A stretch of DNA of 64,000 nucleotides from the NCBI GenBank assembly GCA_031287575.1, contig JAITSV010000081.1, positions 1 to 64,000 on the forward strand. Direction: 5' to 3'. Shown in pieces: positions 3,503 to 62,627 of this stretch. How positions within the stretch are numbered: the first letter of the stretch is position 1; each line of letters opens with the position of its first letter. This stretch comes from Desulfovibrio sp. (lineage in GTDB: Bacteria; Desulfobacterota; Desulfovibrionia; Desulfovibrionales; Desulfovibrionaceae). A program made the translations under genes and the position numbers. Below the pieces are notes generated by a model that worked only from the letters and a program-made list of their open reading frames with translations, was not told the origin of the DNA and ran no database searches.

Positions 3503-5089
3503 ATGGATGGATACAAGGAGTTTCAGGGGAAAAGTCTCGACGATGCCATTCGCGAGGCCTGCTCCTACTTCGACGCCCCGCGCGAGAAGCTCGAGATAGA
3601 CATCGTCCAGGATGCCAAGTCCGGCATCTTCGGCATCGTGGGCGCGCGCAAGGCCAAGATCCGCGCGCGCCGCGCCCAGATAGGGCAGATAGGCCGCCTG
3701 GCTTCGTCAGCACAATCCGCGCAATCGGGCCAGTCGGGCCAATCCGTCGGGACGGGCCAGTCGGCCGCGCCCGGTACCACGGACACCTTCGCCACCAACG
3801 GCACCTCTTCCACCGTGCAGCCCCGTGACGAACGGGGCGCCGCTACCGCAGAAACCGGAGAGGCGGAAGCCGGCGAATCCCGTGCCCTCCATCCGCGTGA
3901 CGAGCGTCCCCGCCGTGAACGCGGTGAAGCCGCCCCGGCCATGGCCGAGGGCGTTGCGGGTGTCGATGCCCATGACGACGCCGCATCCGCCGACGATGAC
4001 GACGAACGCAGACCGGATGGCGAACGCAACGGTCGCCGTCGCCGCCGTGGTGGCCGTGGCCGCCGTGAACGTGACGGCGAAGCCCGTGGCGACAACGGAG
4101 ACCGGGGCGACCGCGATGACCGTGGTGACCGTGGTGACCGTGGTGACAGGCCCGGCCAGCCCCGCGAGACCAACGGTGAGTCTGCCGAAGGTGCCGCGCC
4201 CGACGATTCCCGTCCCGGCGGCAGGTCCGCTCGCACCCCACGTGCGCCGCAGGCCCCGCGCGAAGCTCGTCCCGCACGCCAGCCGCAGGATGGAGAATCC
4301 GGCGCGCAGGCGGGACAGCAGGAGCGCCGTGGTGGCCCTCGTCGCAACGGCGAGAGGCCGGAACGCCCCGAGCGTTCTGACCGGCCCGATCGGCCCGATC
4401 GGCCCGAACGGGCCGAGCGCCCGGCCCGATCGACCAGTCCTGAAAGACCGTCCAGGCAAGAGCGGCACCCCAGGCCCGGACGGCCCATGGGTGACGCAGG
4501 CCTGGGCATGCCGGATATGCCGGATATGCCCGATATGCCCGATATGCCAAATATGTTGGACATGCTGGACGGGGCCGACGAGCACGGCGGCGACGGCCTG
4601 CCGGAAATCCCGCTGGAACAGCTGGACCGGGAGCAGGTGACCCAGGTGGCCGTGGAGGTCATGGAACGCCTGGTCACCCCGGTCATCGGCGAAGCGGGCT
4701 TCACCGTGGAACTGGCCGAAGGCCGCGTCAACGTTTCCGTGGATTGCGGCGAGAATTCCGGGCTGCTCATCGGCCGCGAAGGACAGACCCTGTCGGCGTT
4801 GCAGTACCTGGCCTCGCGCATCGTGTCGCGCAAGCTCGGCGCCTCGGTGCGAGTGCAGCTGGATTCCGGCGACTACCGCGAACGCCAGGACGACAAGCTG
4901 CGCGACATCGCCCTGCACCTGGCCGAAAAGGTGCGCGCCACCGGCAAGCCGCAGTCCACCCGTCCGCTCAGTTCGTACCACCGCCGGGTGGTGCACGTGA
5001 CCCTGCAGGACGACGAAGAGGTGGTCACCCGCAGCAAGGGCGACGGCCCGCTGAAGCGGGTCATCATCATGCGCAAGAAGAAAGGGTAG
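3503..5089 (+). CDS. jag: RNA-binding protein Jag/KhpB with a giant repetitive linker
   Basis: The 528-residue protein has an N-terminal Jag domain (residues 1-52), a very long disordered linker (about 60-365), a KH domain (about 375-450, with the loop IGREGQ) and a C-terminal R3H domain (STRPLSSYHRRVVH). Jag/KhpB binds RNA and is usually encoded next to yidC, as here. Typical family members are about 200-330 residues, so the linker is exceptional. It holds GDR repeats, RPDRPERPER repeats and a MPD-type repeat near residues 334-350, each encoded by in-frame 9- or 12-bp DNA repeats. A GAGGTG ribosome-binding site precedes ATG 3503. The TAG stop is the first base triplet of a dispersed repeat. 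Confidence 0.95.
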   Translation: MDGYKEFQGKSLDDAIREACSYFDAPREKLEIDIVQDAKSGIFGIVGARKAKIRARRAQIGQIGRLASSAQSAQSGQSGQSVGTGQSAAPGTTDTFATNGTSSTVQPRDERGAATAETGEAEAGESRALHPRDERPRRERGEAAPAMAEGVAGVDAHDDAASADDDDERRPDGERNGRRRRRGGRGRRERDGEARGDNGDRGDRDDRGDRGDRGDRPGQPRETNGESAEGAAPDDSRPGGRSARTPRAPQAPREARPARQPQDGESGAQAGQQERRGGPRRNGERPERPERSDRPDRPDRPERAERPARSTSPERPSRQERHPRPGRPMGDAGLGMPDMPDMPDMPDMPNMLDMLDGADEHGGDGLPEIPLEQLDREQVTQVAVEVMERLVTPVIGEAGFTVELAEGRVNVSVDCGENSGLLIGREGQTLSALQYLASRIVSRKLGASVRVQLDSGDYRERQDDKLRDIALHLAEKVRATGKPQSTRPLSSYHRRVVHVTLQDDEEVVTRSKGDGPLKRVIIMRKKKG

Positions 5090-5309
5090 GGGCTGTCTCC
5101 AAATTGTCCTTTCGCCCGTTGGCTTCCGACCCGAAGGGCGCGAAGCGTGGCCGTTAGGCGAGCGCGTAGCGCGAGTCTTACGGGCATCGTGCGCAACGAG
5201 GTCAAACTTCACCTGCCATATCGGTCGAATACGATAAGAGTATACTTCCTCATGGCGTGCTTGTTTTCCTTGCCAACGGACGAAAAACCTAATTTTGAAA
5301 CAGCCCCTA
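5087..5309 (+). repeat. Stop-codon-linked structured repeat, copy A (long form)
   Basis: The element starts at the jag TAG. Its left end reads GGGGCTGTCTCCAAATTGTC and its right end closes with AATTTTGAAACAGCCCC, an imperfect terminal inverted repeat flanked by TA on both sides (5087-5088 and 5308-5309). Inside are a GACCCGAAGGGCGCGAAGCG block with a hairpin module (about 5136-5192), then the core GTCAAAC...GGTCGAATACG...GAGTATAC...GTTTTCCTTGCCAACG. It is in the same orientation as jag. Confidence 0.85.
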
Positions 5310-15123: not shown

Positions 15124-15274
15124 TAGTGGGACTGTGTCCAAATTAGGATTTTTGTTCGTTGGCAAGGAAAACGAGCCTGTCATGAGGGAGTATACTCTTG
15201 TCGTATTCGACCGACATGGCAGGCGAAGTTTGACGCAGCCAACGGGCAAAAAGACAATTTAGATACAGTCCCTA
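15124..15274 (-). repeat. Stop-codon-linked structured repeat, copy B (short form)
   Basis: Read on the minus strand, the element begins at the alaS TAG (15274-15272) with GGGACTGTATCTAAATTG and ends with AATTTGGACACAGTCCC before TA. The core GTCAAACTTCGCCTGCCATG ... GGTCGAATACGACAAGAG ... GTTTTCCTTGCC is intact. The long-form GACCCGAAGGG block is missing. The orientation is the same as alaS. Confidence 0.85.
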
Positions 15275-20480: not shown

Positions 20481-20791
20481 GGATGTGGAGCGGTCGGACG
20501 TTCTTCATCCGTTCTGACCACGCACCATCCCCACGTCCGTCCCCGTTGCGTGGTACCAGAAAGTACGACCAGCATTGCTCCCTTCACAGGCGGCACTTGC
20601 GTATGCGAGTGCCGCTTCTTTTTGGTATGGTCTGCCATTTCGCACCATTTCGCACTGTTGCGCGCCGCTGTCGGATTTCGGGGTGCTTCCGGAGGCTTCG
20701 GGCAGCACAAATCCCTTGATAAAGAAGGGGGATGAGCCTAATGAGGGGTGCCCGGATAGCCCGGAGCCCACATTTCAAGGAAACAGTGCAC
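20481..20791. other. Gap between the PP-loop gene and the NSS symporter gene
   Basis: No gene is seen. It contains the terminator at 20590 and, near the right end, the AAGGA ribosome-binding site of the symporter gene. Confidence 0.6.
20590..20624 (+). terminator. Rho-independent terminator after the PP-loop gene
   Basis: The stem GCGGCACT...AGTGCCGC is extended by inner pairs around GTAT and is followed by TTCTTTTT. Confidence 0.85.
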
Positions 20792-22156
20792 ATGGCGAAA
20801 CAGATCACCACCGCCCGCGACGGCTTCGCAACGCGCCTCGGCGTGCTCGCGGCCACCCTCGGCTCGGCCGTGGGCCTCGGCAACATCTGGAAGTTCCCGG
20901 CCCTCACCGGGCAGAACGGCGGCGCGTCGTTCCTGCTGGTGTACGTGCTGGCCACCCTGCTGGTCGGCCTGCCGGTGATGATATCCGAAATCATGCTCGG
21001 CCGCCGCGCCCGGGCCAACGCGGTGGGCACCTTCCGCCAACTTGCCCCCAAGGGCCAGCCCTGGCATCTGGTGGGCCTTTCGGGCGTGGTGGCCGCGTTC
21101 CTGATCATGGGCTTTTACACGGACGTGGCCGGGTGGGTATTCGCCTACATCTTCAAGGCCCTGTCCGGCGAAATCGCCACCACCGATCCCGCCGTGGCCG
21201 CCAAGGCCTTCGAGGCGCTGGTGGGCAACCCGGTGCAGTCGCTGCTGTGGCAGTGGGGCGTGCTGGTGCTGATCAGCGTCATCATCATCGCCGGCGTCGC
21301 GCAGGGCATCGAACGCACCACCAAGGTGCTCATGCCCGTGCTGCTCCTGCTGCTGGTGGCGGTGTGCGCGCGCAGCCTTACCCTGCCCAAGGCGGGCGAG
21401 GGCCTGGCCTTCCTGTTCACCCCCGATTTCAGCAAGATCACCCCCGGCGTCATCCTGATGGCCTTGGGGCTGGCCTTCTTCAAGCTGTCCATCGGCATGG
21501 GCACCATGACCACCTACGGCAGCTACTTCCGCAACGACCAGGACATTCCACTGACGGCCACCCGCGTCATGCTGTGCGACCTGACCATCTCCATCCTTGC
21601 GGGCATGGCGGTGTTCCCGGCCGTGTTCAACTTCGGCTTCGAGCCCAGCGCCGGGCCCAGCCTGCTGTTCATGACCATTCCCGCCGTGTTCACCTCGCTG
21701 CCGGGCGGCCAGGTGTTCATGGTCATCTTCTTCTGCCTTACCGCCATCGCCGCCACCGGCGCCATGCTCTCGCTGCTGGAAGTGCCCGTGGCCTGGCTGG
21801 CCGAATCGTTCGGCATGCCGCGCAAGCGCGCCACCATCCTCACCTCGGTGACGCTGGCCATCATCGGCATTCCGGCCACGCTGTCCATGTCCACCATGGC
21901 CAACGTGAAGATCTTCGGCATGACCGTGTTCGACCTGTACGACTTCCTGTCGTCCAACGTGCTGCTGCCCGTGGGCGGCATCTTCATCTGCCTGTTCGCG
22001 GGCTGGGTGTGGGGCGCGGCCAACGTGAAGACGGAACTGTCCAACCGGGGGCAACTGCTCAACGGGCCCATCATTTCCGCGTTCCTGACCGTGGTGCGCT
22101 GGGTGAGCCCGGTGCTGGTGTTGCTGGTGCTGCTCAAGGGGCTCAAGGTCTTCTAG
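20792..22156 (+). CDS. Sodium-dependent transporter, NSS (SNF) family
   Basis: The 454-residue membrane protein has about 11-12 hydrophobic segments. The first carries the sodium/substrate motif GSAVGLGNIWKFP characteristic of neurotransmitter:sodium symporters. Bacterial members such as LeuT, TnaT and MhsT import amino acids with sodium; the exact substrate cannot be read. ATG 20792 follows AAGGA at about 20778. A divergent relative of the dispersed repeat lies immediately downstream of its TAG. Confidence 0.93.
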   Translation: MAKQITTARDGFATRLGVLAATLGSAVGLGNIWKFPALTGQNGGASFLLVYVLATLLVGLPVMISEIMLGRRARANAVGTFRQLAPKGQPWHLVGLSGVVAAFLIMGFYTDVAGWVFAYIFKALSGEIATTDPAVAAKAFEALVGNPVQSLLWQWGVLVLISVIIIAGVAQGIERTTKVLMPVLLLLLVAVCARSLTLPKAGEGLAFLFTPDFSKITPGVILMALGLAFFKLSIGMGTMTTYGSYFRNDQDIPLTATRVMLCDLTISILAGMAVFPAVFNFGFEPSAGPSLLFMTIPAVFTSLPGGQVFMVIFFCLTAIAATGAMLSLLEVPVAWLAESFGMPRKRATILTSVTLAIIGIPATLSMSTMANVKIFGMTVFDLYDFLSSNVLLPVGGIFICLFAGWVWGAANVKTELSNRGQLLNGPIISAFLTVVRWVSPVLVLLVLLKGLKVF

Positions 22157-22189
22157 CGCGCGTCGAAAACGCGCAGTACGCGGGCAATG

Positions 22190-22266
22190 GCAGCGTCAAA
22201 CCGTTTTTTTGCTCCGGTCGAATACGGCAAACGTATGCTCCCGTCGCAAAAAAACGGTTTTCCTTG
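22190..22266 (+). repeat. Divergent relative of the repeat core, with replaced stem
   Basis: GTCAAACCGTTTTTTTGC pairs with GCAAAAAAACGGTTTT across a loop containing GGTCGAATACG...CGTATGCTCCC, then TTTTCCTTGCC follows. The order matches the core of copies A-E, but the stem bases are wholly different while complementarity is perfect. It begins 34 bases after the TAG of the NSS symporter, in the same orientation. The terminal inverted repeats are not recognisable. Confidence 0.7.
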
Positions 22267-22339
22267 CCGGAAAACGGAAATGCCGTGCGCAGTTGGAAAT
22301 ATAGGCCGAGGTTCGTGCGAACCAGCACGCCATGAATGC

Positions 22340-22366
22340 AAAGGCCCCGCTTCGGCGGGGCCTTTC
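22340..22366. terminator. Bidirectional terminator hairpin
   Basis: AAAGGCCCCGC-TTCG-GCGGGGCCTTT is a perfect stem with a stable TTCG loop, placed between two convergent genes (NSS symporter and nuclease). Confidence 0.88.
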
Positions 22367-36434: not shown

Positions 36435-36886
36435 AGGCTGCGGTTCTTCCTGCGGTGTGGCCGCTTGGACGAACGCTGGTCCCCTTCATTTTTTGTAAGC
36501 CTCCGGCGGGCAGGGGGCCTTGTGCGCGTTGCGATCGCTATCCGCGCTTTGCGGTCCCTATCCGTAAGGTTCGCTGCACTCACCTGACGGCTAGGGCAAT
36601 GCTCGAAGACTCGCATAACGGCTACCGTCCCCTGCCCCCCTCTTTTCGTGCGTTCCGGATGCCTGCGCATCCCTTGGGGACGCACGTTTTTTTTGCTATC
36701 CACCTTGGGCGACGCGATAAGGCGGGGCAGGGCGGCTGAGTGTACCAGCAGAGGGCATCCCATTGCGTGGCAATGCCCAGGCGGGCGGGGTGTGGCTGGG
36801 GCACGGCAATGGTGGGCGTATCGGGTACGGCAGGGAAGGCCGACCCGGCGGAATCGGCAGGTTCTTTCACGGCACACGGAGGCAGC
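36435..36886. other. Gap after glnD with repeat remnant
   Basis: No gene is seen. A degenerate copy of the palindromic module found in repeat copy E lies at about 36515-36628. GC-rich sequence and a ribosome-binding site for the next gene complete the gap. Confidence 0.55.
36515..36628 (+). repeat. Degenerate relative of the repeat modules after glnD
   Basis: TATCCGTAAGGTTCGCTGCA and ACTCACCTGACGGCTAGGG match module 2 of copy E (TATCCGTAAGGTTCGCAAGC ... TCACCTAACGGCTAAGG). A second half-module ending ATAACGGCTACCG follows. No terminal inverted repeats are visible. Orientation matches glnD, 81 bases after its stop. Confidence 0.65.
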
Positions 36887-41898: not shown

Positions 41899-42216
41899 AT
41901 GCGCCACATCCGCCTCGACGACATGCGCACCTTCAAGGACGCCGGGTTCGCCATGAACCTGGTGCACGACTCGGAAAACTTCAAGATCATCAATTTCAAC
42001 TTCAAGGCCGGACAGGAACTGCCCGTGCACAGCCACGACATCGACGGCGAACTGGCCATCACCGTCATCGAGGGCGAGGGCGAATTCCTGGGCGCGGACG
42101 GTGCGGCCATCCCCGCGAAGCAGGGCGACATGCTGGTCTCGGAAATCCGCGTGCCCCACGGGGTGCGGGCGAAGACCGAAATGCGGGTTATCGTCGTTAT
42201 CGCCCCTCCCATCTAG
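41899..42216 (+). CDS. Small cupin-domain protein
   Basis: The 105-residue protein is one cupin barrel: the first metal-binding motif is seen around LPVHSHDIDGELAITVIEGEGEF and the second around VPHGVRAKTEMRVIV. Its ligand cannot be predicted. A strong AAGGAGA ribosome-binding site lies nine bases before ATG 41899. A CRP/FNR-type palindrome is upstream. Its TAG stop is the first triplet of repeat copy C. Confidence 0.88.
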   Translation: MRHIRLDDMRTFKDAGFAMNLVHDSENFKIINFNFKAGQELPVHSHDIDGELAITVIEGEGEFLGADGAAIPAKQGDMLVSEIRVPHGVRAKTEMRVIVVIAPPI

Positions 42217-42362
42217 GGGCAGTTTCTAAATTGTCCTTTCGCCCGTTGGCGTCGTCAAACTTCGCCTGCCATGTCGGTCAAATACGATAAGAGTATATTC
42301 CCTCATGGCAGGCTCGTTTTCCTCGCCAACGAACGAAAATCCTAATTTAGAAACAGCCCCTA
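42214..42362 (+). repeat. Stop-codon-linked structured repeat, copy C (short form)
   Basis: The element begins at the cupin TAG with GGGGCAGTTTCTAAATTG and ends AATTTAGAAACAGCCCC followed by TA (42361-42362). The terminal repeats differ by few bases. The core stem GCCTGCCATG/CATGGCAGGC is perfect, across a loop with GGTCAAATACG and GAGTATATTCC. The orientation is that of the cupin gene. The GACCCGAAGGG block is absent. Confidence 0.9.
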
Positions 42363-54857: not shown

Positions 54858-55066
54858 TTTGGATTCCGCGAAGAGTGATTTCGTTCGCTGGCCAGGAAAA
54901 CGAGCCCGGCATGAGGGAGTATACTCTTGTTGTATTCGACCGAAATGGCGGGCGAAGTTTGACCGCGTTGCGCTCGATGCCCGTAAAGCTCGCAAGCTCG
55001 CGTAACGGGCACGCTTCGCGCCCTTCGGGTCGGTCTGCCAGCGGGCGAAAGCACCCTTCGCGGCTA
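54858..55066 (-). repeat. Stop-codon-linked structured repeat, copy D (long form)
   Basis: Read on the minus strand from the rlmH TAG (55066-55064), the element has TTTCGCCCGCTGGC, the GACCCGAAGGGCGCGAAGCG block, the module GCCCGTTACGCGAGC...GCTTTACGGGC, then the core GTCAAACTTCGCCCGCC...GGTCGAATACAACAAGAG...GTTTTCCTGGCC. The terminal repeats are degenerate. Orientation equals rlmH. Confidence 0.8.
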
Positions 55067-62306: not shown

Positions 62307-62627
62307 GCCGGGGGGCTCCAAATCGTCTTTTTGCCTGTTGGTGGACCGACCCGAAGGGCGCGAAGCGTGCCCGTTAAGCGAGCTTGCGAGCTTTACGGGC
62401 ATCGTGCGCAACGCGGTCAAACTTCGCCTGCCATAGCTCTGCTGTCCTTATCCGTAAGGTTCGCAAGCTCACCTAACGGCTAAGGCTCGGTCGAATACGA
62501 GAAGAGTACGCGCTGCGGTCGCCATCCGTAAGGCTCGCAAGCTCGCCCAACGGCTGCCGCACTCCCTCCTGGCAGGCTCGTTTTCCTTGCCAACGAACAA
62601 AAATCCTGATTTGGAGACAGCACCCCA
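62304..62627 (+). repeat. Stop-codon-linked structured repeat, copy E (longest form)
   Basis: It follows the glgB TAG in the same orientation. The left end is degenerate (GGGGGGCTCCAAATCG); the right end reads GATTTGGAGACAGCACC. Besides the GACCCGAAGGG block and GCCCGTTAAGC/GCTTTACGGGC module it has two extra palindromic modules, TATCCGTAAGG...CCTAACGG and ATCCGTAAGG...CCAACGG, placed inside the core's loops. Confidence 0.85.

Follow-up and report, generated by a model that had tools for sequence, protein, structure and literature searches.

Downstream of the gene for an NSS family symporter in Desulfovibrio sp. (contig JAITSV010000081.1, positions 1 to 64,000 of the forward strand; this whole stretch of 64,000 nucleotides is referred to below as the window) lies a hairpin, copy 22190, whose loops are those of other hairpins in the window and whose stem is not. 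The locus raises the question whether this hairpin is a true member of the family of those others and, if so, what kind of element keeps its loops and exchanges its stems. The family to which copy 22190 belongs is a divergent ERIC-like element and not a local oddity; the name is given since the Desulfovibrio copies are devoid of the ERIC primer sequence.

The hairpin downstream of the symporter gene

Direct reading of the sequence bears out the earlier note, in which family loops around a different but perfect stem were described: the stem, AAACCGTTTTTTTGC/GCAAAAAAACGGTTT by a minor correction of the note, comprises 15 bp with zero mismatches, GGTCGAATACG occupies positions 22216–22226, CTCCC positions 22238–22242, and TCCTTGCC lies directly 3' of the right stem arm (22261–22268). 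The loop pairing, which the note had also pointed out, is formed by ATACG (22222–22226) and CGTAT (22232–22236). GGTCGAATACG with at most one mismatch occurs nine times in the 64-kb window, against 0.67 occurrences expected. The stem is, however, not unique to copy 22190, since related forms are found at two other loci of the same genome (L002 and L003), and the orthologous site carries this T-rich stem in four congeners (G001, G002, G003, and G005). In G006, G004, and G007 this site has GACTGCGCCCGCCAC/GTGGCGGGCTTGTC instead, with loops recognisably similar, and in G004 and G007 a second, main-type element lies directly 3' of the stop codon of the symporter gene.

Kinship of copy 22190 to the family was assessed with a covariance model (R1) built from 24 diverse Desulfovibrio copies with a fixed structure of 30 pairs. 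The copy is a full-length member, scoring 86.4 bits (whole-genome E value of 3.4e-20) with this Desulfovibrio-only model and 57.2 bits with a cross-phylum model (R2), and its stem shares the register of the GCCTGCCATG copies exactly, with the same alignment columns paired. The lack of any stem sequence common with the main subfamily could be taken to mean that it is an unrelated hairpin resembling the family by chance, but the E value, the common register, and the presence of the other stem type in orthologues at this very site rule this out, leaving it a practically nil probability. The right flank of the copy (22261–22300) looks chimeric: the outer right arm, which G005 and G003 have kept, is missing, and the sequence is similar to the right arm that the other element type has in G006.

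Stretches of 121–153 nt, of both the main and the variant subfamilies, fold as one long hairpin. A single structure accommodates the 24 Desulfovibrio copies, with 94% of cells pairing vs 41–48% when the partner is slid by one to three columns; both sides change in 23 of the 30 pairs, two-sided cells number 146 and one-sided ones 11, and the observed values were not attained in any of 500 shuffles. The covariation among genomic copies proposed as a check in the earlier note is thus overwhelming. The structure was derived from the same 24 copies, so that more weight is carried by an independent set of copies from enterobacteria, Porphyromonas, and Gallimonas, absent from the building of R1, in which 84% are paired vs 33–51% in slid registers and 27 of the 30 pairs change on both sides, in an alignment whose fitting to R1 somewhat favours pairing. 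One clear case of an in situ compensatory change, from C–G to T–A, is provided by L098 and L023. The letters of the internal loops (TGCGTYR/CCTTG and GGTC..RTAC/GTAY.CTCCC) are kept across phyla. The letters of the stems turn over with Watson–Crick pairing kept, and those of the loops are conserved.

Functional RNA helices usually tolerate G–U pairs. In 175 distinct copies, mainly from Desulfovibrio, 4631 of the 5,092 cells scored are Watson–Crick, 138 are A–C and only 78 (ca. 1.5%) G–T, the copies being related and hence not independent events, whereas in 58 tRNAs of these loci the 1,250 cells include 71 G–T and no A–C, a comparison in which the tRNA finder may itself exclude A–C. Because G–T is rarer than A–C here, unlike in tRNAs, covariation alone does not prove an RNA function; of the earlier reading, the covariation and the conserved loops stand, and a protein that binds the loop is conjectural. 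The scarcity of G–U makes a process at the DNA level a serious rival explanation, albeit one that we regard as less likely than the explanation favoured below. According to it, a selfish element would need a folded single-stranded DNA hairpin for its movement, stem changes would be templated by the opposite arm, through quasipalindrome correction or mismatch repair in a hairpin intermediate and not through selection on RNA, and the orientation of the copies would stem from insertion. The almost purely Watson–Crick pairing and the excess of two-sided over one-sided cells speak for it as well. On the other hand, templating by the arms alone would erase asymmetric loops, yet the loops are conserved, and in the non-Desulfovibrio set the direction is opposite, with G–T (39) exceeding A–C (24).

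In the copies of the own genome A–C cells (72) outnumber G–T cells (28); leading-strand C-to-T mutation, like RNA wobble, would produce the reverse. The excess of A–C over G–T prompted the idea that the minus strand is the functional RNA; it was dropped, as the per-column counts are inconsistent (ca. 14 vs 9 columns), the non-Desulfovibrio set shows the opposite, and the copies follow the plus-strand gene.

Copies and their placement at stop codons

When the own genome (4.19 Mb in 84 contigs) was searched with copy 22190 and one main-type copy as queries, dozens of related places were found. With R1, the genome has at least 123 copies of the element and each of seven congeners at least 71–95, while in the complete, single-contig genome of G007 there are 102 copies among the matches listed. 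The window contains six, at 5.1k, 15.1k, 22.2k, 42.2k, 54.9k, and 62.4k (Table 1), of which the last is heavily inserted; its core was unscored by the covariance model, and the copy was identified by sequence and motif.

Table 1. Copies of the ERIC-like element in the window and the features of copy 22190
Feature	Position	Strand	Basis or remark
ERIC-like element, nested hairpin left of GTC	5089..5307	+	TA on both sides (5087-5088, 5308-5309)
ERIC-like element, main (A) subfamily	15128..15272	-	in stop codon of minus-strand gene
NSS family symporter CDS	20732..22156	+	ORF; Pfam PF00209 SNF, E 2.7e-50
TAG stop of NSS CDS	22154-22156	+	intergenic region opens here
ERIC-like element core, 'T7 stem' type (copy 22190)	22173..22288	+	covariance models R1, R2
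Conserved internal loop 3, left side AGCGTC	22192..22197	+	invariant GTC (22195-22197)
Replaced stem, left arm AAACCGTTTTTTTGC	22198..22212	+	sequence; columns common to other copies
Apical block GGTCGAATACG-GCAAA-CGTATGCTCCC	22216..22242	+	invariant columns in alignment; kept across phyla
Replaced stem, right arm GCAAAAAAACGGTTT	22246..22260	+	sequence; columns common to other copies
Conserved internal loop 3, right side TCCTT	22261..22265	+	invariant TCCT
Separate terminator-like hairpin AAAGGCCCCGCTTCGGCGGGGCCTTT	22340..22365	+	3' of element; sequence
ERIC-like element, main subfamily	42216..42360	+	TA on both sides
ERIC-like element core, nested hairpin on left side	54870..54984	-	model match
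ERIC-like element, three nested hairpins	62330..62620 (ends approximate)	+	sequence and motif match

The copy at 62330–62620 has nested hairpins at three internal-loop positions simultaneously. Another repeat, likewise a hairpin and ca. 50 bp long (GCGGTCGCCATCCGTAAGGCTCGCAAGCTCGCCYAACGGCTGCCGC; 36551–36597, 62441–62486, and 62515–62560), is found both standing alone and nested inside ERIC-like copies. The loop position that the nested hairpin occupies can differ between orthologues, namely G004 and G007 at the 22.2k site, and the own genome and G005 vs G007 at the 5.1k site. Counting of nested-hairpin positions by pattern was abandoned since the parse proved unreliable.

Genes were called by a simple ORF finder based on codon usage. 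The upstream gene lies on the strand of the element in 104 of 112 own copies, and no copy in the own genome is located within any called gene. The core starts at most 40 nt from a stop codon in 89 copies, with a mode of 15 nt (31 copies), as would follow from insertion into the TA of the stop codon itself; copies in reverse orientation so close to a stop number only three in the own genome. The stops upstream of elements comprise 81 TAG, 12 TAA, and 6 TGA, and those of other genes at the same loci 85 TAG, 27 TAA, and 39 TGA. In G007, 26 of 30 copies follow a same-strand gene, and the same tendency is seen in other phyla with cruder gene calls. Those upstream genes whose products were checked encode ordinary housekeeping proteins, among them L35, MraY, and chorismate synthase. 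Orthologous elements are about as similar as the flanking coding sequence, and the DNA 3' of them diverges, which speaks for constraint on the element. The copies lie at TA, typically that of a stop codon, and in a strongly preferred orientation.

A strong hairpin directly after stop codons might act as an intrinsic terminator of transcription. This is very unlikely, as no U-run follows the outer stem, copy 22190 has a separate terminator-like hairpin downstream, genes of the same strand flank 82 of the 112 copies on both sides, and conserved asymmetric loops would be superfluous for a simple terminator. As regards the process at the DNA level, it is favoured by the nested hairpins sitting at internal-loop positions and by the plus strand of the element being on the leading strand in 75 of the 102 listed G007 copies, as judged from sampled GC skew, a share exceeding that of called genes on the leading strand in the samples. 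Against it, all five examined G007 copies with a lagging plus strand follow the orientation of the gene, and the near absence of reverse copies at stops is explained most simply by an effect on the transcript.

Kinship with ERIC and host range

R1 contains no enteric sequences; nevertheless, on whole genomes it finds matches in Izhakiella (E 1.3e-11), Rahnella (6.4e-7), Serratia (1.4e-5), and Citrobacter (0.016), all of them carrying the ERIC centre. In E. coli, to which the Citrobacter copy led, a match is present in 5190 of 5426 genomes, and the relative situated between hsdR and hsdM of E. coli K-12 scores 25.2 bits with R1; each of the two ERIC-PCR primer sites is present in it with three mismatches. 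In three Desulfovibrio loci the ERIC1R and ERIC2 primer sites have 20–23 mismatches out of 44, i.e., the chance level, so that the kinship rests on the structure model and the loop motifs.

The element resembles ERIC (IRU, RU-1) in being one long imperfect hairpin of about 127–145 bp, in the TA target duplication, the intergenic location, and the high copy number, and in the conserved centre GGTCAC.TAC..GTA.GCTCCC and the GCGTTG/CGCCTTG loops. It differs in the stems and outer ends, which are almost completely different in Desulfovibrio, in the ERIC-PCR primer sites, which are not conserved, and in the very strict stop-codon placement in one orientation. In Rfam, no family scores above its gathering score over the Desulfovibrio element. 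RF02818 (V_AS5, Vibrio RNA AS5) overlaps a Serratia ERIC copy (L229:4281–4405) on the opposite strand, below gathering; this family may itself be derived from an ERIC copy.

R1 also matches over its full length outside these groups, for instance in Clostridia, Porphyromonas, and Lysobacterales. When named genomes were screened for the apical motif, at least 116 stretches turned up, of which a few tens are estimated to be chance matches; they come from Clostridia, Coriobacteriales, Bacteroidales, Lentisphaerae, Acidobacteria, Proteobacteria, and further groups, and most match R1 at full length, often in tandem at a spacing of about 125 bp. Within Desulfobacterota, R2 has matches in 89 of 198 genomes and 64 of 145 genera. 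Tandem arrays of two to three copies at this spacing are found at seven loci from unrelated phyla (L246, L286, L189, L186, L195, L202, and L230), and in two Clostridia genomes (L195, L237) ERIC-like copies lie close to the secY–adk ribosomal protein operon. A search for a common neighbour gene in other phyla, by an all-against-all comparison of the ORFs near about 45 loci, returned only unrelated common families. The range described for ERIC comprises Enterobacteriaceae and Vibrionaceae (PMC10969869; PMC2267715). The literature covered, largely open-access, holds no report of such repeats in Desulfovibrio.

Movement and proposed function of the element

The family most likely consists of small mobile elements that are non-autonomous and ca. 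145 bp long, almost the whole length being one long imperfect hairpin. At 5087–5309 a copy lies between two TAs, and the site is uninterrupted (empty) in G002 and G003; the TA duplication with an empty counterpart rests on this one clean site and is modest evidence. The element at 15128–15272 is absent from the orthologous site in G002, G003, G005, G006, and G007.

The copies of Porphyromonas levii end in GAGACTGTTGCA, the terminal repeat listed for the IS5-family element ISPg4 (PMC4596501, Table 2). In P. levii such ends also border a multicopy IS-like sequence at contig ends, whose short ORF fragments match no Pfam or NCBIfam model, so that the attempt to name this IS by these models failed. 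The link to IS5 through the Porphyromonas ends is suggestive only. GAGACTGTTGCA is common to the Porphyromonas ERIC-like copies and to MITEPgRS/MITE464 and ISPg4; the Desulfovibrio copies, in contrast, have other ends, and an ERIC-like core is not described in PMC4596501, where the word ERIC has no occurrence. In the own genome no autonomous partner and no IS-sized pair of the element's ends was found, the end pairs being only about 130–370 bp apart, i.e., the elements themselves, and a resident IS with the same ends was discarded as a candidate.

Like the other MITEs, YPAL/RU-2, Correia/NEMIS, and RUP are small palindromic non-autonomous elements, set apart from the present one by their descriptions, these families being defined by conserved terminal repeats or sequence and not by conserved internal loops on free stems. 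NEMIS and RUP also have a terminal TA (PMC2229807, Table 1). The high copy number, intergenic location, and palindromic nature would equally suit a REP/REPIN element mobilised by a transposase of the RAYT (Y1) type, but the unit is of about 145 bp, not 20–40, and TA is duplicated; for Y1_Tnp the genome yields a single match, a 74-aa open frame lying at the end of a contig, and the stretch examined around it contains no element. With no RAYT gene flanked by repeats in the own genome, this origin was dropped as improbable in the extreme.

The explanation that we favour, with moderate confidence, is that of an ERIC-like element mobilised in trans, whose hairpin, starting from the stop codon, acts on the upstream mRNA. 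It would insert at the TA of a stop codon, possibly by IS5-type transposases acting in trans on its outer ends, and the hairpin would then run downstream of the gene and probably be co-transcribed with it. A hairpin with this starting point should form part of the 3' untranslated region of the upstream mRNA and, in copy 22190, would precede the terminator-like hairpin. A cellular factor (nuclease or RNA-binding protein) may read the loops, and the terminating ribosome could cover the left arm, so that translation would be coupled both to folding and to how stable the upstream mRNA is, along the lines suggested for Yersinia ERIC. There, upstream transcripts are reported to be destabilised in an orientation-dependent manner by exposure of an RNase E site (PMC2229807; PMC10969869). 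The position and orientation of the own copies fit this mode, and by analogy a Yersinia-like effect on mRNA is the most likely one here.

It may tentatively be proposed, with less assurance than the above, that ERIC is one lineage of a pan-bacterial class with conserved loops and free stems, in which a translation-sensed hairpin is installed at the stop codon, always facing the same way, and moved by different transposases in different phyla. Notable here are a host range much wider than that reviewed for ERIC, the strict stop-codon position, and the clear pattern of conserved loops on free stems. Bacterial fingerprinting has relied on ERIC for decades, and the definition by structure, together with the range and the stop-codon orientation, makes its mobility and role testable questions. 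The natural compensatory variants show which letters matter, namely those of the loops, and a comparison of genomes that possess the element with those that do not should reveal the protein by which it is read or moved.
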